Of a stretch of 32,041 nt of DNA, positions 3,590 to 25,730 are shown one piece after another; position 1 is the stretch's first letter, and the number at the start of each line of letters is the position of its first letter. A program made the position numbers and the translations under genes. Below the pieces are notes generated by a model. The model ran no database searches. It saw only the letters and a program-made list of their open reading frames with translations, and was not told the DNA's origin. The stretch lies in assembly GCA_903866255.1 (NCBI GenBank), contig CAIPMW010000116.1, positions 1-32,041 on the forward strand, given 5' to 3'. Origin of the DNA: an uncultured Chlorobiaceae bacterium. Lineage in GTDB: Bacteria; Bacteroidota; Chlorobiia; Chlorobiales; Chlorobiaceae.

Positions 3590-3631
3590 GATTTACACAC
3601 CACAAAAAGATAGGATAATCTGGAATTTTTG

Positions 3632-5752: not shown

Positions 5753-5763
5753 AATATTCGCTC

Positions 5764-6882: not shown

Positions 6883-7202
6883 AAGTCAAAGCTTCTCTAT
6901 TAAATGGCCAGGGCAGAAAGCGAAACTGATGACCTGCTCTTATAAGCCACCTTTGTCTTGTTCTTTTTCAGTTTACACTTCTCAGAAACAATAATCCGAT
7001 TCTTAACAAAGATGTAACATTGGGCATATTTTAAAGGGTCAAGTATTGTTGTATCATCAAGTATGCAAGAATTAATAGCAACAGCAATTTTTGAGTCGCT
7101 CTCATCGGGTGTGAGGGATGCTTTATTTCTTTACTCGCTTAATACTTTGAAACTGTTTTTCATTTAACCATTCATTATAACCCTAAAGGGAGTATACAAA
7201 AC
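6883..7202. other. Intergenic region carrying the predicted pst promoter
   Basis: These 320 bases contain no convincing gene. They hold a two-to-three half-site Pho-box-like array (6992-7019), a nearby TATTTT (7027-7032), and a strong Shine-Dalgarno (AAGGGAG) 11 bases before the pstS-like start. The leader from the array to the start codon is about 180 bases. Confidence 0.6.
6992..7019 (+). promoter_or_regulatory. Putative Pho box of the pst operon
   Basis: TTAACA (7003-7008) and GTAACA (7014-7019) are phased by 11 bp, with a poorer third match TAATCC at 6992. TATTTT at 7027-7032 could act as a -10. The array is oriented towards the pst operon, as expected for PhoB activation. The match is weaker than at 15768 or 23448. 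Confidence 0.55.
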
Positions 7203-8183
7203 ATGATTCACAAAAAAATTATAGCCGCACTTGTTTTCGTTGCTGCTTCATTACTCAGTCAGAGTGCATTCTCTGCAGCCGTTCCGGTTGATCCGAAATT
7301 GCCGACTTATCAGAAAGCAAGCGGAGTTTCCGGCAACTTTACCAGTATTGGCTCCGATACCCTGAACAATCTGATGACGCTATGGGCCGAAGAGTTCAAG
7401 CGAGCCTACCCGAATGTCAACATTCAGATTCAGGGGGCCGGTTCAGCAACTGCACCTCCTGCACTGGCCGAAGGTACTTCAAACTTTGGTCCTATGAGCC
7501 GCGTGATGAACGACAAGGAAATCGAAGCGTTCGAGCGTAAACATGGTTATAAACCAACCGCTGTTCCAGTAGCAATGGACGCTCTGGCAATTTACGTTAA
7601 TAAGGATAACCCAGTCAAAGGCTTGACCCTGACGCAGGTCGATGCGATTTTTTCATCCACACGTAAATCAGGCGCATCATCCGACATCACTCTATGGGGT
7701 CAAGTTGGTTTGACCGGTCAGTGGAGTAATCGTGCCATTTCGCTTTATGGCCGTAATTCCGTCTCGGGTACTTATGGCTACTTCAAGGAGCATGCTCTCA
7801 GTAAAGGTGATATGAAAAAAACCGTTGCCGAACAGCCAGGATCAGCATCAGTGGTTCAGAGTGTAACAGGTCAGTTGAACGCAATCGGCTACTCTGGAAT
7901 CGGTTACAAGACCTCAGGTGTTCGCGCAGTACCGCTCGCCAAAAAAGATGGAACGCCCTATGTTGAGGCAGATGCAAAACACGCTCTTGATGGCACTTAT
8001 CCGCTTGCCCGCATCCTGTACGTTTATGTGAACAAAAAACCAAATCAGCCATTGCGCCCTCTGGAACGTGAATTCTTCAAGATGGTCCTCTCCAAACAGG
8101 GTCAGACTGTTGTTGTAAAAGATGGCTTTGTTCCCCTTCCATCAAAATTGGCAGCAAAAGCATTGGCTGAAATCCTGAAATAA
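7203..8183 (+). CDS. pstS: PstS-family phosphate-binding protein of the pst operon
   Basis: This is a 326-residue periplasmic substrate-binding protein. A signal peptide ([20 protein letters not shown]..., cleavage near AFSA) is followed by the PstS-like core. GSDTLNNL and [23 protein letters not shown] are in the phosphate-loop positions, and [17 protein letters not shown] contributes the second lobe. It would deliver phosphate to the PstCA permease. It is only distantly similar to the other binding protein in the window (24900). A strong Shine-Dalgarno (AAGGGAG) precedes the ATG, unlike the pigment genes here, supporting a foreign origin for this operon. It is the first gene of the pst operon. 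Confidence 0.9.
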
Positions 8184-8262
8184 ACCTCTTCATGCTCATT
8201 AACGCATTGGGTTCCGGTCACGTATTGGACGGAATCCATGCCCCTTAAAACAAAGGAATTTT

Positions 8263-8859
8263 ATGCAAAACAAACACCTTCTCATCACCTCGCTGGTCGT
8301 TGCCATGGGTTTTGGTGGTCCGATGGCAAATTCCGAAGCGCAGGATGCTGTTCCGCAAAATGCAACTCCTGTTGTTGCGGCTGAAAAAAAAGAGGTTCCT
8401 GAACAGAATTTCTATATGACATTTTTGGACAAGAGAGTCTACGTTTTGGGCGATTTCAACTTACAGAAGCTTTTTGCAGAGACGAAAGAGGTGGCCCTGA
8501 GGCGCACTCGTATCAGCGAAGGCCCTGATGGCGCAACGCTTGTTTTTGGCATGACCAAGGATGATGTCAAACGTGGTGGACCTACTGATGCCGAGTTGCT
8601 GTACGATGGCAAGCTACAACCTGCCGGTTCGTTCTACGGTGAAGTCTTCAAAAATGGTCGATACTATGTTTTTGTGACATGGGCTGATATGCATGCTTAT
8701 CTCAAGCAGGGTGACGTTTCGCTGACCTTTACCGAGATTGGTGCCGGGCCGAAAGGTGAAACCGTGATCTATGCTCTCAACAAGGAATCAGCAAAATCAG
8801 GCAAGCCGGTTGCCGCAATTGAGCGTTTTCATAACCAGCATTCCGCCAGTGCAAAATAA
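8263..8859 (+). CDS. Periplasmic protein of unknown function in the pst operon
   Basis: This 198-residue protein has an N-terminal signal peptide (MQNKHLLITSLVVAMGFGG..., probable cleavage before QDAV) and no other membrane segment. The mature part is mixed alpha/beta (for example FYMTFLDKRVYVLGDFNLQKLF and GRYYVFVTWADMHAYL). I do not recognise a domain. Lying between the binding protein and pstC, with a good Shine-Dalgarno (AAAGGAA), it is likely an accessory factor for phosphate capture or transporter docking; this is inferred from position only. A strong terminator hairpin follows its stop, so it is probably made in larger amounts than the permease. Confidence 0.8.
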   Translation: MQNKHLLITSLVVAMGFGGPMANSEAQDAVPQNATPVVAAEKKEVPEQNFYMTFLDKRVYVLGDFNLQKLFAETKEVALRRTRISEGPDGATLVFGMTKDDVKRGGPTDAELLYDGKLQPAGSFYGEVFKNGRYYVFVTWADMHAYLKQGDVSLTFTEIGAGPKGETVIYALNKESAKSGKPVAAIERFHNQHSASAK

Positions 8860-8875
8860 GAGGAACAAAGAGTAT

Positions 8876-8907
8876 CCGGGTCAGACGGCACTGTTGACCC
8901 GGTTTTT
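8876..8907 (+). terminator. Intrinsic terminator/attenuator inside the pst operon
   Basis: CCGGGTCA (8876-8883) pairs perfectly with TGACCCGG (8895-8902), and five T follow (8903-8907). This is a classic rho-independent terminator placed between the periplasmic genes and pstC. Partial read-through would give high levels of binding protein and lower levels of permease. Confidence 0.75.
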
Positions 8908-8946
8908 ATAATCATTGTATTATCGACCAAGTGACTGGCCTGCATT

Positions 8947-11205
8947 ATGGATGAAACCAAATCAAATCTGCATACGATTACCGGTGCTATGCGTGGTCGT
9001 TTGTTGATAGACAGCCTTGTGAAGTATGTGATGACATTTGGGGGTATCAGTGTCATCGTTGCTATCAGTCTGATTTTTTTCTATTTGGCGAGTGTCTCAT
9101 ATCCGCTTTTTAAGCCTGTGGAAGTCAGTGACTGGACATCTTATAAGATGCCTGGTGGAATATCTGCGAATACGGTTCATATCTCGTCAGAAGAACAGCG
9201 CGAAATTGGCGCACGTTTTACTGATAACGGAGTGGTGCACTTCTTCAATATGCACAATGGAAAGCCCTTCGGGGAGATTAACATCAAAATCCCTGATGGT
9301 GTTGCCGTAACCAGTTTTGGAGCAGGGGACCCTTCTGATTACACCGCTATTTATGGACTCTCTGACGGGCGTGCGGTCGTTGTCAAACAAACCTATACGG
9401 TTACGTTTGATGCCGCCAACAAACGAGTTATTCAGCCTGCGATTGAGTACCCCCTTGGTGAAACGCCTCTTGTGCTTGACAAAACCGGTTCTGCGATTCA
9501 GAAAATCGCCATACAAGGCAAGGGTGATGCAACTACCATGGTGGCATTGACCAAGGATGGTCGGTTGCTTCTGAAGGGATTGACTTCGACAAAAAATCTT
9601 TTGACTGACGAAAATCAGGTCGAAAGTGTTTCGAGCACTCTTACAGGGGTCTCCGGTGATATACAGGATATCATTATTGAGGTCAAACAACGCGAGTTAT
9701 ATATAGGGCACGGTGGTCAGTTTGTCACCCATTTTGATATATCGGATAAATCGCAGCCGCGATTAGTGCAGAAACAGAAAGTTGTTGCTGATGGCGAAAA
9801 ATTGACAGCCCTCAATATCCTCAGCGGAGGGTTTTCGCTCATAGTGGGTACCGACAAAGGTAATCTTGGTCAATGGTTTCTCGTCCGGGATGCAAACAAC
9901 AATTATACGCTGACTCACATTCGCGACTTCAAGCCAATGAAAGGGAAAGTCACAACCCTTGTCCCTGAATATTTTCGTAAAGGTTTTGTTGTGGCTGACA
10001 ACCAGGGTTCGGTCGGCCTCTATTACGCCACCTCTCAAAAATTGTTATGGCAAGATTTGGTAGGCAAGGGTGAAATTAAAGCTGCAGAAATAACACCACG
10101 AGCCAATGGTCTTGCAATCCAAAGCGCGGACGGGAAACTTTACGTTGCTAACGTGCATAACGAGTTCCCTGAGGTCTCATTTTCCTCCCTGTGGCAAAAA
10201 GTGTGGTATGAGAGTTACGACAAGCCTGAATTTATATGGCAATCTGCAGCCTCTACAAATGATTTTGAGCCAAAGTTCAGCCTTTCGCCCTTGACTTTGG
10301 GAACACTCAAGGCCGCTTTCTACGCTATGCTCCTTGCTACTCCGTTAGCTCTTCTTTCTGCCATATATGGCGGCTACTTTATGTCACCAAAAATGCGTGG
10401 CTGGGCCAAGCCATCCATCGAAATAATGGAGGCGCTTCCAACGGTTATTCTCGGTTTTCTGGCAGGATTATGGCTCGCGCCACTGGTCGAAAACAATTTG
10501 GCGGGTATTCTCCTCTCGTTTGTTTTGGTACCCGCCATAATAATGCTGGCCGCGTTGTTCTGGCATTATCTCCCTGAAAACCTTACCAACCGCGTTCGTC
10601 CTGGTTGGGAAGCAGCCCTGCTTATGCCTGTGGTCATTTTTGGCATCTGGATGGCTTATGATTTGGGACATCCGATAGAAGCATATCTCTTTGGCGGCGA
10701 CATGCCCCACTGGCTGACAACCGAGATGGGGATCCGCTATGAACAGCGCAATTCACTGGTAGTTGGCATTGCCATGGGATTTGCTGTAACACCCACTATC
10801 TTTTCAATTGCTGAAGACGCAATATTCAGTGTCCCAAAACATCTTACCACCGGATCATTGGCATTGGGAGCTACTCCCTGGCAGACTCTCAAAAACGTCG
10901 TACTGCTCACCGCAAGTCCCGGCATTTTTTCAGGTGTTATGATTGGCATGGGGCGTGCAGTTGGCGAAACGATGATTGTGCTTATGGCCACCGGCAATAC
11001 TGCGGTGATGGATTTGAGTATCTTTACCGGATTTCGCACGCTTGCGGCCAACGTCGGTGTGGAAATGCCTGAGGCGGCGGTAGGCACAACCCATTTTCGT
11101 CTGCTGTTCGTTTGCGCGCTTGTTCTCTTCGCCTTTACCTTTATTGTTAATACGCTTGCAGAACTGATACGCGAGCGGCTTCGTACCAAATACAAGAGCA
11201 TTTAA
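8947..11205 (+). CDS. pstC: Phosphate ABC transporter permease PstC, large form
   Basis: This 752-residue inner-membrane permease is more than twice the size of E. coli PstC. After one N-terminal membrane segment (about 27-50) comes a roughly 390-residue periplasmic region with repeated beta-strand patterns, possibly propeller-like. The MetI-type permease domain (about 450-750) follows, with its EAA loop around 630-690 ([16 protein letters not shown], then GRAVGETM). Large PstC proteins of this kind are typical of Pseudomonas, Vibrio and relatives, which supports acquisition from Gammaproteobacteria. It pairs with the similarly enlarged PstA, 14 bases downstream. The role of the extra domain is unknown. 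Confidence 0.92.
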   Translation: MDETKSNLHTITGAMRGRLLIDSLVKYVMTFGGISVIVAISLIFFYLASVSYPLFKPVEVSDWTSYKMPGGISANTVHISSEEQREIGARFTDNGVVHFFNMHNGKPFGEINIKIPDGVAVTSFGAGDPSDYTAIYGLSDGRAVVVKQTYTVTFDAANKRVIQPAIEYPLGETPLVLDKTGSAIQKIAIQGKGDATTMVALTKDGRLLLKGLTSTKNLLTDENQVESVSSTLTGVSGDIQDIIIEVKQRELYIGHGGQFVTHFDISDKSQPRLVQKQKVVADGEKLTALNILSGGFSLIVGTDKGNLGQWFLVRDANNNYTLTHIRDFKPMKGKVTTLVPEYFRKGFVVADNQGSVGLYYATSQKLLWQDLVGKGEIKAAEITPRANGLAIQSADGKLYVANVHNEFPEVSFSSLWQKVWYESYDKPEFIWQSAASTNDFEPKFSLSPLTLGTLKAAFYAMLLATPLALLSAIYGGYFMSPKMRGWAKPSIEIMEALPTVILGFLAGLWLAPLVENNLAGILLSFVLVPAIIMLAALFWHYLPENLTNRVRPGWEAALLMPVVIFGIWMAYDLGHPIEAYLFGGDMPHWLTTEMGIRYEQRNSLVVGIAMGFAVTPTIFSIAEDAIFSVPKHLTTGSLALGATPWQTLKNVVLLTASPGIFSGVMIGMGRAVGETMIVLMATGNTAVMDLSIFTGFRTLAANVGVEMPEAAVGTTHFRLLFVCALVLFAFTFIVNTLAELIRERLRTKYKSI

Positions 11206-11219
11206 AGAGAGAGTAGTAC

Positions 11220-12875
11220 ATGAAAGAGTGGATCAAATCAGGTACCCCATGGATATGGAGTACGGCAGGTGGACTTGCCGTCGCCCTGGTGATGGTGTTC
11301 GGTGTGTTATGGATGACCGCAGCTCGAGGGCTCCCCTATTTCTGGCCATCGCAGGTAGTCGAGACAGCATTTATCGAAAAAGATGGCAGCAAAATCCGTC
11401 TTATTGGTGAAATCAGAGAACGCGAAGAAGTTGCCGTTCGGCGTCTCGTTGAGTCGGGGTTCACCATTCCCGGTAATGAGAAATTTACCACTCGTTATCT
11501 GCTTAAATCAGGCAATCGCGACGTAGCCGGATTTGACTTCAAATGGTACCCTGCGCCATTGTTGAGCAAGTTTACCTATCCTGATAATGTTCTGACTGTT
11601 GAGCGTCGTGAATGGGGTAATTTTTATGGTCACCTCAAATCAGTCAAAGAAAATGGTGTCGTTGTCGCCAACGGCGATTTCGCTCTGCCGGAGTTGCAAA
11701 AGCGGGTTGAACGTGCTCGAAAGCTGTTTGACGAAATATTTCGTATCGAGAAACAGGAGATCGGTGATGTCAATTTCGAACTTGAGAAACTGCGGTTGAA
11801 AGAGCGCAAGTTGCAGTTAGCTGGTAAACTCGACGAAGCAGCAAACCAATCTATTCAGAATCAGCGTCTTGAAACTAACGGACGATTTGCTGAAATCCAG
11901 TCGCGTCTCGATAAATTGCGAGCGGAAATCGGGCGTGACACTCTGAGTGCTGAAGTGATGGATGGCAAGGTTGTTGATGTGCCTCTCTCTAAAGTCTCAG
12001 AAGTATATCGCGCCAATAGCTTGAACATCGGCGACAAAATCGGATTCTACTTCCGTAAGCTTTACGCCTTCGGAACAGAGGATCCTCGTGAAGCCAATAC
12101 CGAGGGTGGAATATTTCCTGCAATTTTCGGTACGGTAATGCTGGTCATCATGATGTCGATTCTCGTTATGCCGCTTGGGGTGATCGCTGCGGTTTACATG
12201 CGTGAGTATGCTGGCCACGGTATGTTTATCCGAGTCATTCGCATTGCGGTTAATAATCTGGCCGGAGTGCCCTCTATCGTCTATGGCGTGTTTGGCCTTG
12301 GTTTCTTCGTCTACTCGCTGGGAGGCACTATAGATCAACTCTTTTTTTCTGAAGCCTTGCCGGCTCCAACGTTTGGAAGTCCAGGTATCTTGTGGTCATC
12401 TCTTACGTTAGCCATTCTGACCTTGCCGGTTGTTATTGTATCTACTGAGGAGGGATTGGCACGGGTGCCGCGCAGTCTTCGCGAAGGCAGTCTGGCACTG
12501 GGTGCAACCAAGGCGGAAACCCTGTGGCGTACTGTATTGCCCATGGCCAGCCCAGCCATGATGACCGGTCTGATTCTTGCCATAGCTCGCGCAGCAGGAG
12601 AGACCGCACCATTGATGCTGGTTGGTGTGGTGAAATTGGCCCCAAGTCTTCCACTCGATGGACATTTCCCTTATTTTCACCTGGAGCGGCAGTTCATGCA
12701 CTTGGGCTTCCATATCTATGATGTTGGTTTCCAGAGCCCTAACATAGAAGCAGCGCGGCCTTTGGTCTATGCTACAGCCTTTTTGCTTGTCCTGGTCATC
12801 GTGGTGCTCAACCTTGCAGCGGTTTCACTCCGTAATAAGTTACGCGAGAATTATCGTGTTCTGGAAGGTATATGA
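11220..12875 (+). CDS. pstA: Phosphate ABC transporter permease PstA, large form
   Basis: This is the 551-residue partner permease. One membrane segment (about 13-33) is followed by a roughly 260-residue periplasmic region containing a charged, coiled-coil-like stretch (about 160-240, rich in E, K, R and L). The permease domain (about 300-545) has the EAA-type loop [22 protein letters not shown] and ARAAGETAP. It is nearly twice the usual PstA length and matches the gammaproteobacterial large form. A purine-rich AGAGAGAG lies before the ATG. pstB follows about 40 bases later. The extra domains of PstC and PstA may contact each other or the periplasmic proteins; this is inference. Confidence 0.92.
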
Positions 12876-12915
12876 TGTACAATTCAAACCAACCTACAAA
12901 CCGGATACCCAATTG

Positions 12916-13770
12916 ATGAGTACGCCAGAAGCGAATACGATACAACCGAAAACCTCAACACTGGACATGAGTAACTTACTTGGGCGGATGAGTGGTTCTC
13001 AAACCAGTGCTCCGTTTACTGTTTGCCTCGAAGCAAAGAATCTCAACCTTTACTATGGCACAACCCGCGCATTGATTGATGTGAACGTCCAGATTCCCAA
13101 ACAGCAGGTCACTGCGTTCATCGGCCCCAGTGGCTGTGGTAAATCCACCTTGCTGCGCTGTTTCAACCGCATGAACGATCTGGTTGATAATTGCAGCATC
13201 AAGGGCCAGGTACTCCTCGATAATGACGATATTTATCATCAAGCAGTCAAGGTTCCATTGCTGCGTCGTCGCGTCGGGATGGTGTTCCAGAAGCCAAATC
13301 CTTTCCCCAAATCGATTTTCGAAAACGTTGCCTATGGATTGCGAACCATGGGGGTGAAAAACAAGAAAATATTGAGCGAATCCGTCGAACGTGCACTTAA
13401 CGGAGCTGCGTTGTGGGACGAAGTCAAAGATCGGCTCGATTCAAATGGTTTAAGCCTGTCAGGCGGCCAGCAGCAGCGACTTGTTATTGCCCGGGCCATT
13501 GCGCTGGAACCCGAAGTATTGCTCCTTGATGAACCATGTTCAGCTCTTGATCCTATCGCGACGGCTAAAATTGAAGAACTCCTGGTTGAACTCAAAGATC
13601 GTTTTACCATTGTTATTGTTACGCATAACATGCAACAGGCTGCTCGGGTTTCAAATTTCACAGCATTCATGCATCTTGGTGAGATGGTAGAATTTTCTGA
13701 CACAACGACACTTTTTACTACACCAAAATCTGAACGCACGAACGACTATATCACTGGTCGATTTGGCTGA
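12916..13770 (+). CDS. pstB: Phosphate ABC transporter ATPase PstB
   Basis: This 284-residue ATPase powers PstCA. It has Walker A (GPSGCGKST), the Q-loop region ([13 protein letters not shown], typical of PstB), the signature LSGGQQQR, Walker B with the catalytic Glu ([13 protein letters not shown]) and the H-loop (VTHNMQQA). About 40 extra N-terminal residues precede the core. The frame is open well upstream (to 12769), but that part overlaps pstA and looks non-coding, so the ATG at 12916 (MSTPEANT) is chosen. It completes the pump in the same operon. Confidence 0.96.
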
Positions 13771-13793
13771 TCATAAACAAGGAGAAGATTGCT

Positions 13794-14480
13794 ATGCCGG
13801 AAAAACATACCCTGGGAAGTTTCGATCAGGATCTGGACTTGCTGCGAGATGCGGTTCAGCATCTTGCCGATCTTACCCAAAATGCAATTAAGAATGCTAT
13901 GCAGGCACTGCTGAGTAGCGATCATGATTTGGCACAGGTCGTTATCGACAGTGACCTTGTCATCAATCAGCTCCAACAGCAGATACTTTTCCAGATGAAC
14001 ATTGTTCTGGCTCGACAGCAGGCTATGGCGCAGGATCTTCGTGAAATTATGGCCGCTGGCCGTATAGCCGCACATCTGGAACGAGTAGCCGCTCATGCAA
14101 AAAATATTGCCCGCCGTACTCTGGAGCTGGATAGAACCGTGGATGAGGAGATCGGCAGCCAGCTCATTTGGATGAATGAACGAATAAGCTCCATGCTTCA
14201 GCAGGTAATGGGCGCCTACCAGAGACGCAATGTTGAAGAATCAATAATAGCGTGGAGCAGCGACGATGAATTGGATCGTGTATACAGTAAACTTTTTTTA
14301 CATTTACTCGATAGGATGCAACATAATCCTGATTCAATTAAAACAGCAATACTCCTTTTATTTATTGCCAAAGGGCTTGAGCGGGAAGGCGATCATGTCA
14401 TCAATATTGCAGAAGAAATTCACTTTATGGTTACAGGAACCCCATTGCGGAGCCTTGGTTCCACATTGGATTCTCATTAA
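13794..14480 (+). CDS. phoU: PhoU-family phosphate regulator (second copy, pst operon)
   Basis: This 228-residue PhoU protein has two three-helix repeats: MAQDLREIMAAGRIAAHLERVAAHAKNIARR in the first and KGLEREGDHVINIAEEIHFMVTG in the second. It lies 23 bases after pstB with a strong Shine-Dalgarno (AAGGAG), the standard position at the end of a pst operon. It differs substantially from the copy at 2903, so the two are unlikely to be a recent duplication; this one probably came with the operon. It would couple Pst flux to the sensor kinase. Confidence 0.94.
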   Translation: MPEKHTLGSFDQDLDLLRDAVQHLADLTQNAIKNAMQALLSSDHDLAQVVIDSDLVINQLQQQILFQMNIVLARQQAMAQDLREIMAAGRIAAHLERVAAHAKNIARRTLELDRTVDEEIGSQLIWMNERISSMLQQVMGAYQRRNVEESIIAWSSDDELDRVYSKLFLHLLDRMQHNPDSIKTAILLLFIAKGLEREGDHVINIAEEIHFMVTGTPLRSLGSTLDSH

Positions 14481-14597
14481 ATTTTTTGCATTAGCTGCGT
14501 ATTGTGTGTCCAATTCGAAAATCGCACTCTGGGTTAGAGGCAAATATTTTGGTGAAACAACAGGATCATGAGGTAAACAAATTAATCAACATTCTCT

Positions 14598-15053
14598 ATG
14601 CAAAAAAAACAAAACGTGCTTTTTCTCTGTACCGGCAACTCCTGTCGGAGCCAGATGGCCGAAGGGATACTTCGCCACCTGGCTGGTGAGCGTTTCGAAG
14701 CGTTGAGCGCAGGACTTGAGCCTGGTAATCAAGTCCATCCTTTTGCGATACAGGTTATGAAGGAAATTGGTATTGATATCAGTTCTCAACAACCCAAGGC
14801 TGTAGATCTCTACCTTGGAAAAAAAATGATTCATTACATGATGATTGTATGTAACAAGGCACAATCAACCTGCCCGAGGGTCTGGCCAGGGCTTCCAAAT
14901 GAAAAACGTTATTACTGGCCAGTCAATGATCCTGCGGTGATTTCCGGTTCAATAGAAGAGCAGTTGATGGTTTTCCGTGATGTGCGTGACGAACTGGAGG
15001 AAAAAATAACCTCCTGGATTAACAAAATTCCATCGCTTGATTCTTTATGCTGA
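14598..15053 (+). CDS. arsC: Thioredoxin-coupled arsenate reductase
   Basis: This 151-residue cytosolic enzyme would reduce arsenate to arsenite. It has the low-molecular-weight phosphatase fold with the P-loop CTGNSCRS (C11 nucleophile, R17, S18). It also carries C85 and C92 seven residues apart, the same spacing as the redox pair C82/C89 of Staphylococcus pI258 ArsC. NDPA supplies the general-acid Asp (D111). These extra cysteines favour arsenate reductase over a tyrosine phosphatase. No arsenite exporter or ArsR is nearby. Its place after the pst operon makes sense because Pst pumps also admit arsenate. No Shine-Dalgarno is apparent. It overlaps the converging gene by nine bases. Confidence 0.9.
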   Translation: MQKKQNVLFLCTGNSCRSQMAEGILRHLAGERFEALSAGLEPGNQVHPFAIQVMKEIGIDISSQQPKAVDLYLGKKMIHYMMIVCNKAQSTCPRVWPGLPNEKRYYWPVNDPAVISGSIEEQLMVFRDVRDELEEKITSWINKIPSLDSLC

Positions 15054-15707
15054 ACCATCATGCTGGTCTGAAAGTGGTTCCGAGGGCTGCTGAAACTGCA
15101 CCGGAGCTTCGGCAATTTTCCTGAAAAGCCTCATCTGGAACAAATGTGGGAGCCAGTTCAGCAACAACGTAGCAAGCGACTCCCACAACGAAACCCACGC
15201 TACAATGGTCAGCCCTTCGGCAAAAAACTTGTCAAGAAAGGATGGATTACCCTCTTCCAAAAACAGATGATTTACCCAGAGTGAGAGCCCGAGAATAACA
15301 ATGCCAATAGTGAGGAGAATTACTGAAGTTCTCAACATTTTATTCATTGCCGCATGCTCTCGCTCTCGCTGATACATAAAGAATTTATGGACGCTGGTAC
15401 GTACTCGCAGCATAAATTCTTCGGATGGAAAATGCTCAAACATAAACCTGACAACAAAGTCGGTACGACCAATTTCAGTCACGCAATCGGTCAGATAATA
15501 CACCAAATCTTCATCAAGATCCTTTTTATGGTACGGTGCTATCTTGTCGAAGTTTTCATACAGATCCTCAACACGCCGTGCAGAGACATCAATAATAACG
15601 ATACCATCGGCCGTATGTTCGTACCGATCCAATATTCTTTTTTTCACACGTTTTTTTCCTGCTTCAGATTTTTTTGCAATATTAATCATGCAAAATATAG
15701 AGATCAT
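15045..15707 (-). CDS. Two-pass membrane protein of unknown function
   Basis: This is a 220-residue protein. The first 120 residues are charged and predicted cytosolic (beginning after a basic AKKSEAGKKRVKKRILDRYEH). Two hydrophobic segments follow (about 126-146 and 166-188), ending in a short polar tail. I do not recognise a domain. It converges on arsC with a nine-base overlap and diverges from the acid phosphatase. The phased array at 15768-15806 begins about 60 bases upstream of its start and could influence it. The start may be 15707 or the second Met at 15689. Confidence 0.75.
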   Translation of the reverse strand: MISIFCMINIAKKSEAGKKRVKKRILDRYEHTADGIVIIDVSARRVEDLYENFDKIAPYHKKDLDEDLVYYLTDCVTEIGRTDFVVRFMFEHFPSEEFMLRVRTSVHKFFMYQREREHAAMNKMLRTSVILLTIGIVILGLSLWVNHLFLEEGNPSFLDKFFAEGLTIVAWVSLWESLATLLLNWLPHLFQMRLFRKIAEAPVQFQQPSEPLSDQHDGSA

Positions 15708-16011
15708 CTTTGCTGTGATTCATAATTGCCTGCAATATAGCTCGCGGAGAGCCATGCAATTGCTGAGTTCACATGATCGTAACAATTTCTCAACACTATT
15801 TTGTTTTTGTTACTTGTCATTGCTCAGAGAACAACTGACGACGCAGAAAGAGCAAAAAATATACGTCAAGCAGCATTCGGTAACAAAAAAGTGGCTCTTC
15901 GCATCAAGCAAACAGCTTTAACTTTGGAGTAATTTTCAATATCAACAACCTCTTCTGGTACACGAGATACTCAAATATGACACAATTTAACACAACACAA
16001 AAAACAAATAT
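15708..16011. other. Divergent intergenic region
   Basis: These 304 bases lie between the minus-strand membrane protein and the acid phosphatase. They contain the phased array at 15768-15806 and nothing that looks like a gene. Confidence 0.5.
15768..15806 (+). promoter_or_regulatory. Putative Pho box array upstream of acid phosphatase
   Basis: Hexamers at 11-bp steps are TTCACA (15768), GTAACA (15779), TCAACA (15790) and a poor TTGTTT (15801). The 17 bases 15779-15795 match 23470-23486 before the porin at 16 positions. Two unrelated upstream regions sharing this block strongly suggests a common regulator. It lies about 200 bases from the phosphatase start and 60 from the divergent membrane protein, so the target promoter is not certain. 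No good -10 was found. Confidence 0.6.
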
Positions 16012-17547
16012 ATGATGAGAAAAAACCTACCCGGGATTAAATGGCAATTGCCGATCATGATTGCCTTTCTCATGTTTTCAGCATGGAGCGATTCCGTTGG
16101 TGCCAGAAAAAATGAAGCGCCTTTGCTTCGGAAAATTGAAACGATAGTGGTGATTTATGCAGAAAACCGAAGTTTTGATAATCTGTATGGGCTGTTTCCT
16201 GGGGCAAATGGCATTATAAAAAATGCTCATGGAAACCATACGGATGGTAACGATTTCAAACAACTCGACAGGGATGGAGTTACTCCTTTTGGAAAGCTTC
16301 CGTCAGTGTGGAATTCTTTGCCCACATCTGGCAGTAATAACCTGAGCTTTATCAAGGAGTTGCCAAATGAGCCATTCCGAATTGATGCTCAACCTGGCGA
16401 TGTCCCTGGAGGCATAATGCCAGACAAAGCCACGCCGGATTTAGTGCACCGGTTTTATAATAACCAGATGCAGATAAATAATGGTAAAAATAACATGTTT
16501 GCAGCATGGTCGGATGCTGGTGGCTTGTCAATGGGTTATTATGATGGTTCTGTTATGCAACTATGGAAATTAGCGCAGAAATACACATTAGCAGATAATT
16601 TTTTCATGGGCGCTTTTGGAGGATCATTTCTGAACCATTTCTGGCTGATTGCGGCATCTACTCCCTTCTACCCTGGTGCGCCAGACAACCTCAAAAGTCA
16701 ACTTGACAAAAGTAGGGTCAAGCTCACTCTTGCTGCAAACTCTCCACTCAGTGGGACAACAGGCAAGGCTGTTTACGTTGCCGACCAAGCACTGACTGAT
16801 GATGGTTATGCGGTGAATACCTTGCAGCCGACCTATCAACCAAGTGGCATCCCGCCAGCTCCAAACGGAAACTCACAACTTGCTGACTTGACCAAAAACC
16901 CTCTCCCTCCTCAAGAGTTCAAGACTATCGGCGATGCCTTGAGCGCAAAGGGAGTAAATTGGGTTTGGTACGCTGGAGCCTGGACTGAGGCATTGAATAA
17001 TCGTAGCATGATCTATAACAGTAAAAGCTCAAATTTTCAGCCGCACCACCAACCATTCAATTATTTTAAAAGATTTGACCCAACAACAACGGAGGGCTCA
17101 CTTGAACGAAAAATGCATCTGAAGGATTATTCGGATTTGCAGAAAGATATTGCAGCAGGTACGCTGCCCGCTGTTGTTTTTTACAAGCCTCAGGGTAATC
17201 TAAATCAGCATCCTGGCTATACTGATGTGATGTCAGGAGATGCCCATATAGCACAAGTGATCCATGAGTTACAGAACAGTCCACAGTGGAAAAAAATGGC
17301 AATCATTGTAACTTATGATGAAAACGGTGGTTTTTGGGATCATGTTGCACCACCGAAAGCAGATCGATGGGGGCCAGGCACACGTATTCCAGCCATTATC
17401 ATATCACCTTATGTCAAGGCTCATTTTGTTGATCATACCTTGTACGATACAACATCTATCCTGAAATTTATAACAAAGCGGTTTGAGCTTGAGCCGTTAC
17501 CGGGAGTTCGCCCTCAAGTGGGTGATTTGACCAACGCCTTTCAATAG
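16012..17547 (+). CDS. AcpA/phospholipase C-family acid phosphatase
   Basis: This is a 511-residue secreted phosphoesterase. A signal-like N-terminus (MMRKNLPGIKWQLPIMIAFL) is followed by the phosphoesterase fold of the AcpA/phospholipase C family. IVVIYAENRSFDNLYGLFPG holds the metal-binding Glu-Asn and the FDN motif near residue 55. MGYYDGSVMQLWKLAQKYTLADN is nearly diagnostic of the AcpA branch, and IVTYDENGGFWDHVAPP provides later metal ligands. Acid phosphatase is more likely than phospholipase C, but the substrate is not proven. An upstream phased array suggests phosphate-starvation control. The start is the first of two ATGs; no Shine-Dalgarno is visible. Confidence 0.88.
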   Translation: MMRKNLPGIKWQLPIMIAFLMFSAWSDSVGARKNEAPLLRKIETIVVIYAENRSFDNLYGLFPGANGIIKNAHGNHTDGNDFKQLDRDGVTPFGKLPSVWNSLPTSGSNNLSFIKELPNEPFRIDAQPGDVPGGIMPDKATPDLVHRFYNNQMQINNGKNNMFAAWSDAGGLSMGYYDGSVMQLWKLAQKYTLADNFFMGAFGGSFLNHFWLIAASTPFYPGAPDNLKSQLDKSRVKLTLAANSPLSGTTGKAVYVADQALTDDGYAVNTLQPTYQPSGIPPAPNGNSQLADLTKNPLPPQEFKTIGDALSAKGVNWVWYAGAWTEALNNRSMIYNSKSSNFQPHHQPFNYFKRFDPTTTEGSLERKMHLKDYSDLQKDIAAGTLPAVVFYKPQGNLNQHPGYTDVMSGDAHIAQVIHELQNSPQWKKMAIIVTYDENGGFWDHVAPPKADRWGPGTRIPAIIISPYVKAHFVDHTLYDTTSILKFITKRFELEPLPGVRPQVGDLTNAFQ

Positions 17548-18843: not shown

Positions 18844-19345
18844 GATGAATATCTCCTTTGTAAAACTCAGTTATCAAACAATAAAGCAATTTTGTCTATT
18901 TAATTATCCTGTTGCCGTTATGGCAGCAGAACTGCACATGAAATGACTGTTGTCCAAAGACCGTTTTTGCCCTCTGCTGTTGCTGAAACAAATAACAATG
19001 GTGTATCTCCTGATTAATCTTGTTTTTTTAAAGAATAATAGATGTATAAAACCATAGAGAAAAGAACAATTTGCATTAAAAAAGATAGAAAACCCGAGCA
19101 AAGGTATTGTTACAATTATGTTAAATCGCCATAACGAGAGCAATAAAATCAAGCCATCAGGATATCACATCTATCCTGCTAAATGATAGCCATTTGCTTA
19201 TTAATGCGGATACCAGGCTATAAGAGAAGTTTTCATTATCTCAACCAAAACGTTACAGCGTCGTAATAATTATGCTTTTGATGAGTTGTATAATTCTTGG
19301 GATGAAATTGTTCTACGACTCCTAATAAACCATAAAGATACCATA
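18844..19345. other. Long AT-rich intergenic region
   Basis: These 502 bases separate the divergent repeat-protein and giant phosphatase genes. They contain the three-half-site array at 19241-19268 and a perfect TATAAT at 19289-19294. A second phased pair, GTTACA (19109) and GTTAAA (19120), lies further upstream. No convincing gene is present. Confidence 0.55.
19241..19294 (+). promoter_or_regulatory. Putative Pho-regulated promoter of giant phosphatase
   Basis: TCAACC (19241), GTTACA (19252) and GTAATA (19263) are phased by 11 bp. Exactly 20 bases after the last one lies TATAAT (19289-19294), the same spacing as at 1634-1698. Transcription from this -10 would start near 19300. That rules out the TTG at 19286 as a start codon and supports the ATG at 19346. 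Confidence 0.6.
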
Positions 19346-22300
19346 ATGGCAATAAAACTTTTTGATGGCATTGACTCCGCACTCATCAATTCGAGTGTGG
19401 ATGGCTTGGGTAATGTTGTAACCTTGTATTTTGATGCTCCACTTGATACAGTAAATATACCATCAGTCGGTCAGTTTGTTGTAAGCAACGGAGGCACCGC
19501 CCAGACAATCAGCAGTCTGCAAGTGGTCAATAACCAGATTATTCTGCAACTTGCAGCAACTCTTGATCAGAGCAAGGCAGTCAAGGTTTCCTATGCAGAT
19601 GTCACTTTAGGTAACGATGTCAACGCTGTTCAGGATCACAACGGTAATGATGCGCCATCGTTTCAGGATATCGAAGTGGGTAAAGCACCTGGATTGACAC
19701 CGAGTGGAGCTGAATCTTTCGCTTTTGCCTCTACAATCTCTCTCGCTGGAGCTGAAATTTCAGCGTTTGATGCAGCAAGCGGACGACTTTTCGTCACCTC
19801 AGCCTCAGGACTGGGCTTACAGGTTGTCAGCGTGGATGCTCAACTCAAGATGACTCTTCTGGGGACTATCCCACTTGGGAGTAACGATTTGAACAGTGTC
19901 TCCGTCAAGAACGGCATTGTTGCTGTGGCAGTGGCTGATGCAGACAAGACTTTGCCGGGGAAAGTCTTCTTTCTTGATGCTGATGGTGATGTAACTTCCG
20001 CCTTGATGACGTTGGGCAACGTCCCTGTTGGAGCTAATCCCGACATGTTGACCTTCAGTGCTGATGGCAAGACGGTTCTTGTTGCCAACGAAGGTGAAAT
20101 GGCCAGTCTGGCGAGTAACCCGGAAGGTTCGGTCAGCATCATTGATCTCAGCAATGGCGCTGCTGCAGCAACAGTTAAAACGGCCTCTTTTACAGCATTC
20201 AACGATAAATTTGCAGAATTGCGAGCAGAAGGTGTACGCCTCTTCGATGGAGTTACGGTGGCCAATGACCTCGAACCAGAATACCTCAGCATCTCTCCTG
20301 ACGGGAAAACAGCGTTCGTGACTCTGCAGGAAAACAACGCCATCGGCATTCTTGATATAGCAACTGGCACAATTACCGATATCGTTCCTCTCGGCCTGAA
20401 AAGCTGGCTTGGTCTTCCATTGGACGGCGCTGACAATGGCAGCTATAACCCATCGACAACCCTCCCTGTTTTTGGTCAGTATATGCCTGATGGAATCGGC
20501 TCTTTCACCGGCAGTGATGGTAAAACGTATTATATCATCGCCAATGAAGGAGATGACCGTAATGACTTTATGTCACCTGATGCCGTCAAGCTTAAAGATA
20601 TAGGCAAGTCTGTAGATCCGGTCAGCGGGAAAAACTTTTCCCTGGACCCGGAGTTGATTGCAAAGTATGGCAATCTGCTGAGTACCACAGCAATAGGTAA
20701 CCTGAGAATCTCTCTTGCACCTGGTAACAGCGGAGACATTGACGGCGATGGAGTTATCGAACAAATTCAGGCTTATGGTGCCCGATCCTTCAGCATTCTT
20801 AACGCTGATGGCACACTGGTTTTCGAGAGCGGATCGCAAATCGAGCAGTTTGCAGCTTCGACAGGCTCTTTCAATTCGGCTGATCCCTCGACCTCCGGCA
20901 TTTTCGTCGACACACGTTCCGACAACAAAGGCCCTGAACCTGAAGGCATTGCTATCGGTAAAATAGGAGGAAAAACCCTTGCCTTCGTCGGTTTGGAGCG
21001 TGCTGGAGGCGCTGTTATGGTTTATGACGTAACCGATCCACAACATGTCAGTTTTGTCCAAACTCTGCACAATCCAGATGATTCCAAAGCTCTCACCGGT
21101 GATGGGGCTGAGTCCGGGGGTGGCCCCGAAGGGCTGACCTTCGTTTCGAGTGATGGCAGCCCCAATGGAAAAAATCTGCTTTTTGTTGCCAACGAATATG
21201 CAAAAACGATCAGTCTGTTCACCTTGACAAATCTGAACGATGCGCCTGCTGTGGCACATCCTGTCGGTAATGTATCGACAGCAGAAAACAAGCCATTCAA
21301 TTTGCTGGTGCCAGTGGGAACATTTCACGATCTGGATACCGGTGACAACCTCACCTATACTGCAACTCTGGCCGATGGCAGCCCACTGCCGTCATGGCTG
21401 AAATTCGACAGTGAGCTTCAGGGTACGCTGAAATATGTAGGGGCTGCAAGAGATGCCTATTTTGCTCTTTCTGATGCGTGGCCATCAACAGACTCTGCAT
21501 CTGCCGGTACAGCCATTGGCTCCGGAGTAAAGACCGATGGCGGCAATGTTGCATGGCAGAGTGGCGATCCTGTTGGTGGCGAAATTACGACCATTGCCGA
21601 AACCCTGAGAGCCGATCTTGGTTTCGCCATAGGTGTGGTCAGCACTGTGCCGTTTTCTCATGCAACACCAGCCTCTTTTGTCAGCCATAATATCAACCGC
21701 AATAACTATCAGGATATTGCCCACGAAATTCTCTTTGATACACAGCCTGAGGTGGTGATTGGGGGCGGACTCGACAGCCTGTTTGCAAAGGCAGTCACCA
21801 ATTCGGCAAAGGCCAGTACAGATATTAATCTCAATGGCTATAATGACGACTACGATGCGTTCAAGGCGGGTACCAGTGGAACACCCTATACGTTTGTTGA
21901 GCGAGCTACCGGCGTGGACGGAGGAACTCTCCTGGCTACTGCCGCATCCGCAGTTGACATTACAGCAGGCGGAAAGCTTTTTGGACTGTTCGGCACTTCG
22001 GGCGGAAATTTTGAATACTACAATGTCGCGGACACTCCCGGAACACCTACCATTACCCGAAGCACAACCGATTCGACACCAGGAGTGGATGAAGACCCAA
22101 CATTGTCAGAAATGACCTTCACCACTCTGTCGGTGCTGAACAAGGATCCTCAAGGTTTCTTTGTGATGTTCGAGCAGGGTGATATTGACTGGAGCAACCA
22201 TGCCAATGGCTACGAAAATATGGTTGGCGGGGTTTATGACCTCGAACAGGCAGTCACCACAGCAGAGACTGTGCTGGACGCAGGCAAGAACGGAATGGAT

Positions 22301-23419
22301 TGGTCAAATACACTGATGATCGTCACCAGCGATCACTCGAACAGCTATCTGCGCCTTCAGGAAGAGCCGGGTAAAGGTAATTTGCCTCTTGAGGTTGTGG
22401 GTGCAAGCAAATCCACCTATCCCAACGGTGAGGTAACCTACGGCACAACTGGCCACACAAATGAACTGGTGACGCTTCAGGCAAGAGGCGCTGGCGCTCA
22501 ACTGTTCAGCCAGTATGCCGGGCTCTGGTATCCCGGTACGAATATTGTAGATGACACACAGATTTATCAGGTGATGACCTCGGCGGCAAAAGATCTTGGT
22601 GTCAAGCACATCATCCTCTTTATCGGCGATGGCATGAACATCGAACATGAGATAGCCGCCAGCCAGTATCTGTACGGCAAGGATTTCGGCTTGACCTGGC
22701 AGGACTGGGGGCAGTTGAACAATGGATGGGCCGGCTATTCAAGCACCTGGGATGTTACCGCCTACAATGCCTATGCAAAAGCTGCGGGGGTGGCCAATTA
22801 TAGTGCAAGCACCTTCGACCCCACAATCGGTTACGATCCATCGAAGGGCGGCCAGACTCCGCTGCCGGTTGGTATGACCTTAAGTGGCACACCAGATCAC
22901 GCCAATGTTGGTTCGATCGATGTAAAAATAACTGCTACGGACAAAAGCAGCGCCACGGCCAGCGATACGTTTACTCTGACTGTGGATGATACAACTCCAC
23001 CTGCAGTCGTAACATTCAGCCCGGGAGATGGTGCAACAGGAGTCGCCATCGGCAGTAATATTGAGCTCATGTTCAGCGAAGTGATTCAGAAAGGTACCGG
23101 CACCATAGAGATCCACAGCGGTTCACCAGGCGGCACCGTTGTGGAGAGCTACAATGCGGCAACAAGCACCAATCTGGCAATTTCTGGCTCAACATTGATC
23201 ATCAACCCAACGGCCAACCTGAATTACCAAACGCAATATTTTGTCACGTTCGGGGAAGGATCAATCCATGACAGCTCAGGAAATCACTACGCCGGAAGCA
23301 CAGCTTATGACTTTACCACTGGCGCTGATCCCTATGCTGGCAACGATAGCGCTGTAAGTACTGAGACGGCGCTGGCAGGAGTTGGAACACTCGGGCTCCT
23401 TGCCTGGCTGCTTCTTTAG
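19346..23419 (+). CDS. Giant multidomain alkaline phosphatase, apparently circularly permuted
   Basis: This 1357-residue protein has, in order: a SwmB-like beta domain (about 1-115); a long beta-propeller-like region of the choice-of-anchor I type (about 120-635); the first half of an Ig-like He_PIG domain (about 640-693); an alkaline phosphatase domain (about 694-1176); the second half of the Ig domain (SGTPDHANVG..., about 1177-1212); an SbsA-like Ig domain (about 1213-1325); and a hydrophobic C-terminal tail. Phosphatase residues, matched by motif to E. coli PhoA, are S717 (TDSAS), T774 (SHATPA), E943/D948/H952, D996/H997, H1037 and D1095 (GDGM). GDGM normally comes first but is last here. 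No classical signal peptide is seen, so export is uncertain. It lies under a putative Pho promoter. Confidence 0.85.
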   Translation: MAIKLFDGIDSALINSSVDGLGNVVTLYFDAPLDTVNIPSVGQFVVSNGGTAQTISSLQVVNNQIILQLAATLDQSKAVKVSYADVTLGNDVNAVQDHNGNDAPSFQDIEVGKAPGLTPSGAESFAFASTISLAGAEISAFDAASGRLFVTSASGLGLQVVSVDAQLKMTLLGTIPLGSNDLNSVSVKNGIVAVAVADADKTLPGKVFFLDADGDVTSALMTLGNVPVGANPDMLTFSADGKTVLVANEGEMASLASNPEGSVSIIDLSNGAAAATVKTASFTAFNDKFAELRAEGVRLFDGVTVANDLEPEYLSISPDGKTAFVTLQENNAIGILDIATGTITDIVPLGLKSWLGLPLDGADNGSYNPSTTLPVFGQYMPDGIGSFTGSDGKTYYIIANEGDDRNDFMSPDAVKLKDIGKSVDPVSGKNFSLDPELIAKYGNLLSTTAIGNLRISLAPGNSGDIDGDGVIEQIQAYGARSFSILNADGTLVFESGSQIEQFAASTGSFNSADPSTSGIFVDTRSDNKGPEPEGIAIGKIGGKTLAFVGLERAGGAVMVYDVTDPQHVSFVQTLHNPDDSKALTGDGAESGGGPEGLTFVSSDGSPNGKNLLFVANEYAKTISLFTLTNLNDAPAVAHPVGNVSTAENKPFNLLVPVGTFHDLDTGDNLTYTATLADGSPLPSWLKFDSELQGTLKYVGAARDAYFALSDAWPSTDSASAGTAIGSGVKTDGGNVAWQSGDPVGGEITTIAETLRADLGFAIGVVSTVPFSHATPASFVSHNINRNNYQDIAHEILFDTQPEVVIGGGLDSLFAKAVTNSAKASTDINLNGYNDDYDAFKAGTSGTPYTFVERATGVDGGTLLATAASAVDITAGGKLFGLFGTSGGNFEYYNVADTPGTPTITRSTTDSTPGVDEDPTLSEMTFTTLSVLNKDPQGFFVMFEQGDIDWSNHANGYENMVGGVYDLEQAVTTAETVLDAGKNGMDWSNTLMIVTSDHSNSYLRLQEEPGKGNLPLEVVGASKSTYPNGEVTYGTTGHTNELVTLQARGAGAQLFSQYAGLWYPGTNIVDDTQIYQVMTSAAKDLGVKHIILFIGDGMNIEHEIAASQYLYGKDFGLTWQDWGQLNNGWAGYSSTWDVTAYNAYAKAAGVANYSASTFDPTIGYDPSKGGQTPLPVGMTLSGTPDHANVGSIDVKITATDKSSATASDTFTLTVDDTTPPAVVTFSPGDGATGVAIGSNIELMFSEVIQKGTGTIEIHSGSPGGTVVESYNAATSTNLAISGSTLIINPTANLNYQTQYFVTFGEGSIHDSSGNHYAGSTAYDFTTGADPYAGNDSAVSTETALAGVGTLGLLAWLLL

Positions 23420-23486: not shown

Positions 23487-23580
23487 GAATGAATGGTACC
23501 TTGTGTTGCGGATAGAGATGTTATTCAATCTGAATAATGAAATGAAACTGAAAGTCAAAAAAATAAACCAAATAGTTGTT

Positions 23581-24762
23581 ATGAAAAAAGTTGCATTGAT
23601 AGTCGGTCTGGCCGCTGCCCTCGGGTTCAACCATGCAGAGGCGGCAGACTGGAACTGGAAGGGAGATGTAAGAGAGCGTTGGGAGTACCAGCGCACCGAT
23701 AAAACGACGGATATAACCCCTGCCGCAAGCTCAAGCCGCGCCCGAACCCGTGTTCGGCTTGGTGTCTATCCATGGATCAATGATGAGCTTTCCGCCGGTG
23801 TGCAACTTGCGACTGGCAGCGATACCCCGGGAGAGACCATATCCCGCAACCAGAACTTCGGGAGTCTGTTCCAGCCTAAAAGCATTTATCTTAATGAGGA
23901 GTTCATTGATTACCACCCGAGATCGTACGGCCTTGACGGAAAAATAAATATTATCGTCGGAAAAAGAGATATCACCAATACAATTGTCAGAGTAGATAAT
24001 CTGGTTTATGATGGAGATCTCACCATTGAGGGCGCAACACTTCAGTATGGTAAAGATTCTGAAGGCAAGGAAAAAGAGGGGTTGATTGCCATTGCCGGTT
24101 ACTACCTTCTTAACTCATGGTCATCAAACACGACAGGTGATCCCGTCCTTTACGTTTTTCAGGGTGCGTACAAAGGCGAAATCAATGATATAGGCTACAC
24201 TTTTGGTGCAGGATACAATAACTATTCACGAATCAACAATCTGAGTACATCGGGAGACAAGGGTTCAGTTGGTATCAACCCGTCTGCGGGAACTTACTAC
24301 TCTGCTCCACCAGTCGCTCTCTATCCAAACTCGGGATACAGGATTGTTGAGCTGTTTGGAAAAGTTGGCGGCCAGATTACCGAAACACTTCCCTGGAAAA
24401 TCTACGCTCAGTATGCCTTCAACAGTGCAAGTCATGCAACATATTCGAGTATAGATGACAACCAGAGAAAAGCCTGGCTTGCCGGAGTTACTATTGGCGA
24501 TGCTAAGCAGGTTGGTGACTGGGCGATTGACCTGAAATACGACCGTATTGAAAGAGATGCCGTTTTCCCGCTGTTTACTGATTCTGACAGGAAAGTCAAT
24601 GGCACCATCTATAACGTTCAGGGCCTTGAAATTGCAGGTACCTATCATCTGGTACAGAATATGAATATCGGAGCCAGGTATTACCGTTACAAAAATATTG
24701 TGCCTGCACCTGGTGACCCGACCCTTAATCAGCTTCAGCTTGATGCCGTCGTCAAGTTCTGA
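23581..24762 (+). CDS. Outer-membrane porin
   Basis: This is a 393-residue predicted beta-barrel. The ATG at 23581 gives a clean signal peptide (MKKVALIVGLAAALGFNHAEA, cleavage before ADWNW), so longer in-frame starts upstream are rejected. The mature protein has alternating aromatic and polar strands (for example ARTRVRLGVYPWINDELSAGVQLATGS) and ends in VVKF, the C-terminal Phe recognised by the BAM machinery. It resembles the 'putative porin' family. A four-half-site Pho box upstream and a phosphate-binding protein downstream suggest it admits phosphate or small organophosphates. That is inference; no similarity to OprP was established. Confidence 0.82.
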   Translation: MKKVALIVGLAAALGFNHAEAADWNWKGDVRERWEYQRTDKTTDITPAASSSRARTRVRLGVYPWINDELSAGVQLATGSDTPGETISRNQNFGSLFQPKSIYLNEEFIDYHPRSYGLDGKINIIVGKRDITNTIVRVDNLVYDGDLTIEGATLQYGKDSEGKEKEGLIAIAGYYLLNSWSSNTTGDPVLYVFQGAYKGEINDIGYTFGAGYNNYSRINNLSTSGDKGSVGINPSAGTYYSAPPVALYPNSGYRIVELFGKVGGQITETLPWKIYAQYAFNSASHATYSSIDDNQRKAWLAGVTIGDAKQVGDWAIDLKYDRIERDAVFPLFTDSDRKVNGTIYNVQGLEIAGTYHLVQNMNIGARYYRYKNIVPAPGDPTLNQLQLDAVVKF

Positions 24763-24807
24763 AAAGTATATGTATATTGTTCTTTCTTTGTGTTGTGTGG
24801 CTGGTTT

Positions 24808-24842
24808 GCAAGGTTGTTCCTGCATCTTAAGGAGCACCTTGC
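24808..24842 (+). other. Imperfect hairpin between porin and pstS
   Basis: GCAAGGT (24808-24814) pairs with ACCTTGC (24836-24842), and the stem continues inward for about six more pairs with one bulge and a G-T pair. No U-tract follows, so it is more likely an mRNA-stabilising or processing element than a terminator. It lies in the 137-base gap between porin and pstS, where no Pho box was found, hinting that both are on one transcript. Confidence 0.4.
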
Positions 24843-24899
24843 CAAGCCGGTTTATCATCAACAACCGATGATTTATTTATCAAATTCTTTAACCCAATT

Positions 24900-25730
24900 A
24901 TGTCAATCAACATGAACTTATTCAAAAAAATACTTTTAGGCGCCACAGTTTTCAGCGTTATGTCTTCTGGAACGGCCGGTGCCGCAGGTAAAATAGTTAT
25001 TGACGGTTCAACGACCGTTGGACCTGTCGCCAAAGCATTTGCAGACCACTTTACCAAAGCCACCGGCGTACAGGTCTCGGTGAGCGAATCCGGATCTGGC
25101 AACGGAGCAAAAAGCCTGATCAACAAAACCTGTGATATTGCTACCATGTCACGTGCGATGAAAGACAAGGAAGAGGCCTCTGCAAAAAGCAGGGGTGTCA
25201 ATCCTGTTGAGCACCTTGTCTGCCTTGATGGTCTCTCTGTTGTTGTTCATCCGAGCAACCGCATCAACGCGCTTTCAAAAGCGCAGATCCGGGGTATTTA
25301 CATGGGAAAATACACCAACTGGAATCAGCTTGGGGGATCAAACTCGGCTATTGTGGTTATTCAGCGGGAATCGAACAGCGGCACTGCAGACTCCTTTAAA
25401 GAGCTGGTCATGGGCAAGGATAACCCGATTTCCAAACGGGCAGAAACACAGGCAAGCAATGGTGCCATAAAGAGCCGCGTGGCAACGACACCGTCTGCAA
25501 TCAGCTATATCGGTATGGGTTTTGTTGACGGTTCAGTAAAGCCGCTTCTGGTTGATGGTGTGGAGGCAGACGTGAAGACGGTCAAAAATGGCACCTACCC
25601 GCTCCACCGCCCCCTCTTTATGTATACCAACGGTCAACCAACCGGCGCTATCAAGCAGTTTATTGATCTGCCAAAAACGGCGGAAGGAAAACGTATCATC
25701 AGCGAGACCGGGTTTGTCAATAATTATTGA
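24900..25730 (+). CDS. pstS: Orphan PstS phosphate-binding protein
   Basis: This is a 276-residue periplasmic phosphate-binding protein. A signal peptide (LFKKILLGATVFSVM..., cleavage near GAAG) precedes the classic phosphate-contacting segments DGSTTVGPVAKAFADHF, SESGSGNGAKSLINKTCDIATMSR and RESNSGTADSFKE. It follows the short bacterial PstS type and is distant from the operon copy at 7203. No permease or ATPase genes accompany it, so it must use the pst operon pump or one elsewhere. It is likely co-transcribed with the porin and ends at a strong terminator. ATGs at 24900 and 24912 are both possible starts. Confidence 0.92.
   Translation: MSINMNLFKKILLGATVFSVMSSGTAGAAGKIVIDGSTTVGPVAKAFADHFTKATGVQVSVSESGSGNGAKSLINKTCDIATMSRAMKDKEEASAKSRGVNPVEHLVCLDGLSVVVHPSNRINALSKAQIRGIYMGKYTNWNQLGGSNSAIVVIQRESNSGTADSFKELVMGKDNPISKRAETQASNGAIKSRVATTPSAISYIGMGFVDGSVKPLLVDGVEADVKTVKNGTYPLHRPLFMYTNGQPTGAIKQFIDLPKTAEGKRIISETGFVNNY

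Follow-up and report, generated by a model that had tools for sequence, protein, structure and literature searches.

Alkaline phosphatase is among the most studied of enzymes, and the PhoA enzymes are dimers. An engineered circularly permuted form of the E. coli enzyme was described by Kojima et al. in 2005 (cited in PMC2395249, PMC8513176 and PMC3281007), and the title of that paper indicates that permuting the PhoA fold can preserve high activity. In the open-licence papers searched, alkaline phosphatase permutants were found only as laboratory constructs and no natural permutation of this enzyme was found, so the novelty of a natural case is provisional. Here we describe a protein encoded in a window of 32,041 nucleotides (the whole stretch of DNA analysed) from an uncultured Chlorobiaceae bacterium, and confirm that it contains a PhoA-type alkaline phosphatase in which the C-half precedes the N-half. 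The permutant of Kojima et al. was, by its title, made in the laboratory whereas that of the window is natural.

The window protein has the same Ser in a TDSA motif, the same Thr and Arg and the same metal ligands as the E. coli PhoA, Vibrio, TAB5 and Shewanella enzymes, and solved phosphatases were its top matches, with a C-half of similar predicted fold. It differs from these enzymes in that the GDGM-bearing N-half follows the C-half, the termini of the unit lie just before the Ser helix and the unit is embedded in an Ig-like domain. Unpermuted single-unit proteins of Lamprocystis, Rubrivivax, Thiobacillaceae, Aminicenantes and Desulfobacterota are ~47-54% identical to it, have common motifs and share its long 'GYDPxxGGxxPYPL' linker, but they have the usual order, are mostly stand-alone proteins of ~500-590 aa and lack the Ig insertion. 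We consider it highly probable that the window encodes a natural circularly permuted PhoA-type phosphatase that is inserted into a hairpin at the surface of a He_PIG domain, as part of a multi-domain protein that is secreted or located at the cell surface.

The open frame spans positions 19286-23419 (1377 residues), reaching back to a TTG at 19286, and the features of the gene are collected in Table 1. Residue numbers refer to this whole frame; those of the initial annotation were counted from the ATG at 19346 and are converted by adding 20. Pfam detected He_PIG at residues 654-716 and Alk_phosphatase at residues 734-1041 of the open frame. No N-terminal signal peptide is evident in the protein of this gene, and its hydrophobic C-terminal tail is a possible anchor or sorting signal. 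Close relatives keep this tail, and in other relatives RTX repeats or dockerin-like tails take its place. Because the tails differ in this way, the part responsible for anchoring or export seems to have been swapped among relatives.

Table 1. Features of the permuted phosphatase gene, in positions of the window
Feature	Position	Strand	Basis
Whole gene, likely ATG	19346..23419	+	Start region common to relatives
SWM_repeat-like N-terminal domain, residues 32-106	19379..19603	+	Pfam 4.3e-07
choice_anch_I beta-propeller-like domain, residues 154-645	19745..21220	+	Pfam 3.6e-79, NCBIfam 9.2e-137
Split He_PIG Ig-like domain, first part, ending SWLKFDSELQ	21245..21421	+	He_PIG 2-57, 37 bits
Circularly permuted alkaline phosphatase unit, residues 713-1197	21422..22876	+	Profile order, structure model
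Phosphatase C-half (Ser to last His and C-terminal helix), residues 713-1105	21422..22600	+	Profile 90-448
Catalytic Ser737 (E. coli Ser102)	21494..21496	+	Motif position, conservation
Metal ligands E963/D968/H972 (E. coli E322, D327, H331)	22172..22201	+	Motif position, conservation
Metal ligands D1016-H1017 (E. coli D369-H370)	22331..22336	+	Motif position, conservation
Metal ligand H1057 (E. coli H412)	22454..22456	+	Motif position, conservation
Phosphatase N-half (HIILFIGDGMN strand and following part), residues 1106-1197	22601..22876	+	Profile 3-84
IGDGM ligand D1115 (E. coli D51), at the end of the motif order	22628..22630	+	Motif position, conservation
Split Ig-like domain, second part, TLSGTPDHANVG to TLTVDDT	22877..22993	+	He_PIG 60-95, 32 bits
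Big_5 bacterial Ig-like domain, residues 1235-1345	22988..23320	+	Pfam 3.8e-24
C-terminal tail, short hydrophobic end (AGVGTLGLLAWLLL; GVGTLGLLAWLLL)	23321..23416	+	Common to close relatives

The initial annotation had read a permutation from the order of the motifs, with the serine (S717 in its numbering) first and the GDGM aspartate (D1095) last, and this order is borne out: Ser737 leads and Asp1115 closes the unit. Each motif occurs once in the window, as had been stated, and every ligand that it placed was located (E963/D968/H972, D1016/H1017, H1057 and D1115), with Thr794 and Arg805, the counterparts of E. coli T155 and R166, lying between Ser737 and Glu963. The match to Alk_phosphatase (PF00245) was strong (9.7e-37, 127 bits against a cut-off of 24.4) and covered profile positions 57-336 only. 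Against a family profile built from twelve unpermuted relatives, the native chain matched in reversed order, first at 90-448 (447 bits) and then at 3-84 (98 bits), and placing the N-half ahead of the C-half in silico gave a single collinear match over 3-448 with 556 bits, in agreement with the claim that the two phosphatase ends rejoin into the usual order. Solved alkaline phosphatases likewise matched from the Ser motif through the DH motif, and a separate, non-collinear IILFIGDGM stretch matched their N-terminus. Relative to its homologues the unit is thus a circular permutation, with two parts exchanged and each motif in single copy. It holds the residues expected of PF00245, namely the nucleophile Ser and the counterparts of D51, T155, E322, D327, H331, D369, H370, H412 and R166; the linear motif order usual in PF00245 is absent, as the GDGM half comes last, and that order is typical of members but is neither required for homology nor counted as defining. 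Chance similarity is excluded by the Pfam value and the three family-profile scores. The presence of two full phosphatase copies with an overlooked second GDGM was also considered, and was rejected on the single copy of each motif in the window.

The Ig-like domain that surrounds the phosphatase gave 37 bits (He_PIG 2-57) and 32 bits (60-95) when its two parts were scored alone, and became a complete He_PIG domain (PF05345) in one match over 2-95 with 75 bits once the insert was left out, as the initial annotation had predicted. The single-contig genome G214 encodes one protein with two interrupted Ig domains and an intact Ig domain between them (FNAGTRTFSGTP; LPGWLSFNAGTRTFSGTPDNDEVG). Compared with the Ig domain obtained by joining the two parts in the window, this intact domain shows 56% identity and aligns across the junction, which places the insert in the hairpin that leads into the SGTP strand. 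An empty site, in the form of a choice_anch_I protein without the insert, was not found among the relatives, where only intact sister Ig domains occur. The motif order, the profile scores, the conserved ligands, and the selection and structure model described below all support the view that the permuted phosphatase is nested within a split Ig-like domain.

Some match to the protein was found in 27 of 61 near genomes, about nine of which contain the permuted form over a long stretch. Within a phylum sample of 296 genomes, 20 matched at E 1e-20, all belonging to the window's family (Chlorobiaceae), and two of these (G117 and G214) are single-contig assemblies. All Chlorobiaceae loci that hold both halves have the C-N order, with Ig-C-N-Ig units doubled in L012, L016 and G214. 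The search for homologues with either order, which had been suggested at the outset, also recovered single N-C proteins in other phyla (Pseudomonadota, Desulfobacterota, Acidobacteriota and Aminicenantes); these unpermuted relatives (~50% identity) keep the usual order, the reversed order is absent from them, and the permutation reading therefore stands. Two further arrangements belong to the same subfamily and have the same direct C-to-N fusion between units as the window protein. Deferribacterota (L026, L109 and L110) have a lipoprotein-like tandem N-C-N-C phosphatase with normal ends, whereas a protein of the Chloroflexota genome L023 has shifted ends and runs C-N-C-N-C-N, followed by choice_anch_I, without Ig domains around its units; so far, a single metagenome bin of the Chloroflexota is the sole source of this array. 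The L023 protein (L023:5806-12084) has a signal-peptide-like start and can be read as two normal-order units preceded by an orphan C-half and followed by an orphan N-half; these two end pieces might complete each other. The tandem phosphatase frame of a fourth Deferribacterota genome (L108) is broken at several places. A second Chloroflexota locus, L118, was considered as a C-only form and rejected, a divergent N-half being present in front. On plasmids, only ordinary PhoA matches were seen, none of them covering 80% of the query.

Trees were used to examine the origin of the permutation. The concatenated halves were analysed because the N-half tree has too few columns to resolve, and in this tree, rooted by midpoint, the Chloroflexota array is sister to the Chlorobiaceae form (100/99), with the tandem group joining next at lower support (92/89) and then the singles. 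A C-half tree with an outgroup recovered the Chlorobiaceae form as one clade (98/100), and its deeper branching is not settled. Tandem and permuted proteins also resemble each other in how the C-terminal helix is fused directly to the IGDGM strand. Tandem duplication, followed by a shifted reading of the repeat and then Ig capture, fits these observations better than insertion of a circularized segment, and is favoured by the existence of N-C-N-C and C-N-C-N-C-N relatives, the second of which is the sister group. Under this history, in which the order of steps is itself provisional, a single N-C enzyme would have been duplicated in tandem, a shift in phase would then have turned the tandem repeat into C-N units, and within the Chlorobiaceae lineage an Ig domain would have captured one such unit. 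This path is consistent with the duplication model described for circular permutation in PMC2213659. We think it probable that living relatives represent each of these steps, as a single enzyme, a tandem pair, an out-of-phase array and a permuted unit with an Ig clamp near the Ser.

The initial annotation had instead proposed that phosphatase DNA was excised, circularized and inserted into the Ig-coding region with no tandem array. Such an event would yield the same final product, and the insert junctions, at which no direct or inverted repeats were found, are compatible with either route. However, the sister of the Chlorobiaceae form is an Ig-free C-N-C-N-C-N array, the N-C-N-C proteins adjoin it in the tree and duplication needs no circular intermediate. 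We therefore regard the circularized insertion as unlikely and retain the tandem-duplication origin.

How the reordered chain would fold was approached by structure prediction. An AlphaFold2 model of the C-N unit alone (54 rows) reached a pTM of 0.93 and a mean pLDDT of 89.9, with N-half blocks mostly at 93-96, and a model of Ig plus phosphatase (55 rows) a pTM of 0.85 and a pLDDT of 85.7; both used a shallow alignment (~55 rows) of permuted, tandem and array proteins, with unpermuted C and N pieces entered as separate rows. Foldseek and VIA-align found that the folds closest to the model were all alkaline phosphatases, the best VIA-align match (Z 31.2) spanning model residues 88-461 and thus the C-half only, as the alignment is sequential. 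The new fold topology that had been claimed is better described as a new connectivity of what is predicted to be the known phosphatase fold, and not as a new fold. In the predicted arrangement the old termini, the C-terminal helix and the IGDGM strand, would be fused directly, as they are in the tandem relatives. The break in the chain would fall in the loop immediately preceding the catalytic Ser helix, where the Ig domain would hold the two new ends together, and the chain would refold into an ordinary phosphatase containing two zinc sites and a single magnesium-type site. Alternatively, the halves could complete each other between chains in a domain-swapped dimer or fibre, as PhoA enzymes are dimeric and several relatives have two or three units per chain, which would make exchange between units possible. 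The C-to-N junction is short, however, and resembles the junction between the copies of the tandem proteins. The pTM of the unit suggests that a loose N-half is unlikely, and a single-chain model of this confidence makes domain swapping very unlikely when compared with the refolded single chain.

Because the order is unusual, the domain might also derive from two broken phosphatases and persist in a purely structural or binding, non-catalytic role. The pattern of conservation stands against this reading: the metal ligands together with the Ser, Thr and Arg are kept in the window and 19 further Chlorobiaceae rows (20 of 20 for the permuted form), in the three L023 units and in the tandem rows. 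Both phosphatase halves evolve under purifying selection, with dN/dS values of ~0.05-0.14 between the window and relatives where dS is unsaturated, a strong constraint on each half. The gene, which is the only PF00245 match found in its genome, also sits among phosphate genes. Upstream is a phosphate island (2903-17547) of phoU, ppk1, a metallophosphoesterase, pstS, pstC, pstA, pstB and phoU, continuing with a low-molecular-weight phosphatase and a PF04185 phosphoesterase. Directly downstream (23503-25730) are Porin_5 and a PstS-like binding protein, which may form a phosphate uptake pair with the phosphatase, and bacteriochlorophyll genes lie beyond them. Two ORFs beside and inside the island (1833-2696, 287 aa; 8263-8859, 198 aa) had no Pfam match, and no Pho-box-like sites above chance were found near the phosphatase gene. 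A non-catalytic remnant is very unlikely given the conserved residues, the constraint on both halves and the setting among phosphate genes. Judging from sequence and gene neighbourhood, the role of the permuted enzyme is likely to be extracytoplasmic phosphate release, in which phosphate monoesters would be hydrolysed outside the cytoplasm and the product would feed the neighbouring Pst importer. Finally, although the assembly that contains the window consists of 117 contigs and a contig end falls inside the gene in L009, L020, L022 and L025, an assembly or binning artefact has a negligible probability and assembly error is rejected because the same architecture recurs in ~20 genomes at 92% down to ~64% identity, including the single-contig genomes G117 and G214.

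The permuted phosphatase represents a rare natural case of protein rewiring, in green sulfur bacteria. A conserved natural permutant, accompanied by relatives that preserve the proposed duplication steps, makes the duplication model testable on a real enzyme with simple assays. If the Ig domain controls the loop before the catalytic Ser, the protein would also be a naturally occurring counterpart of the insertion design behind protein switches. Such permuted proteins look truncated in annotation, as the standard profile sees the C-half only.

Some relatives carry additional parts, namely RTX repeats, a phytase-like plus 5'-nucleotidase domain or an N-terminal metallophosphoesterase, and these additions are in line with a secreted, phosphorus-scavenging role. 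The L005 protein (L005:686-6118) has an extra N-terminal calcineurin-like phosphoesterase before choice_anch_I and the permuted phosphatase. A 2950-aa fragment in L016 (L016:1-8850) combines phytase-like and 5'-nucleotidase domains with two nearly identical Ig-C-N-Ig units, making it a multi-phosphatase protein.
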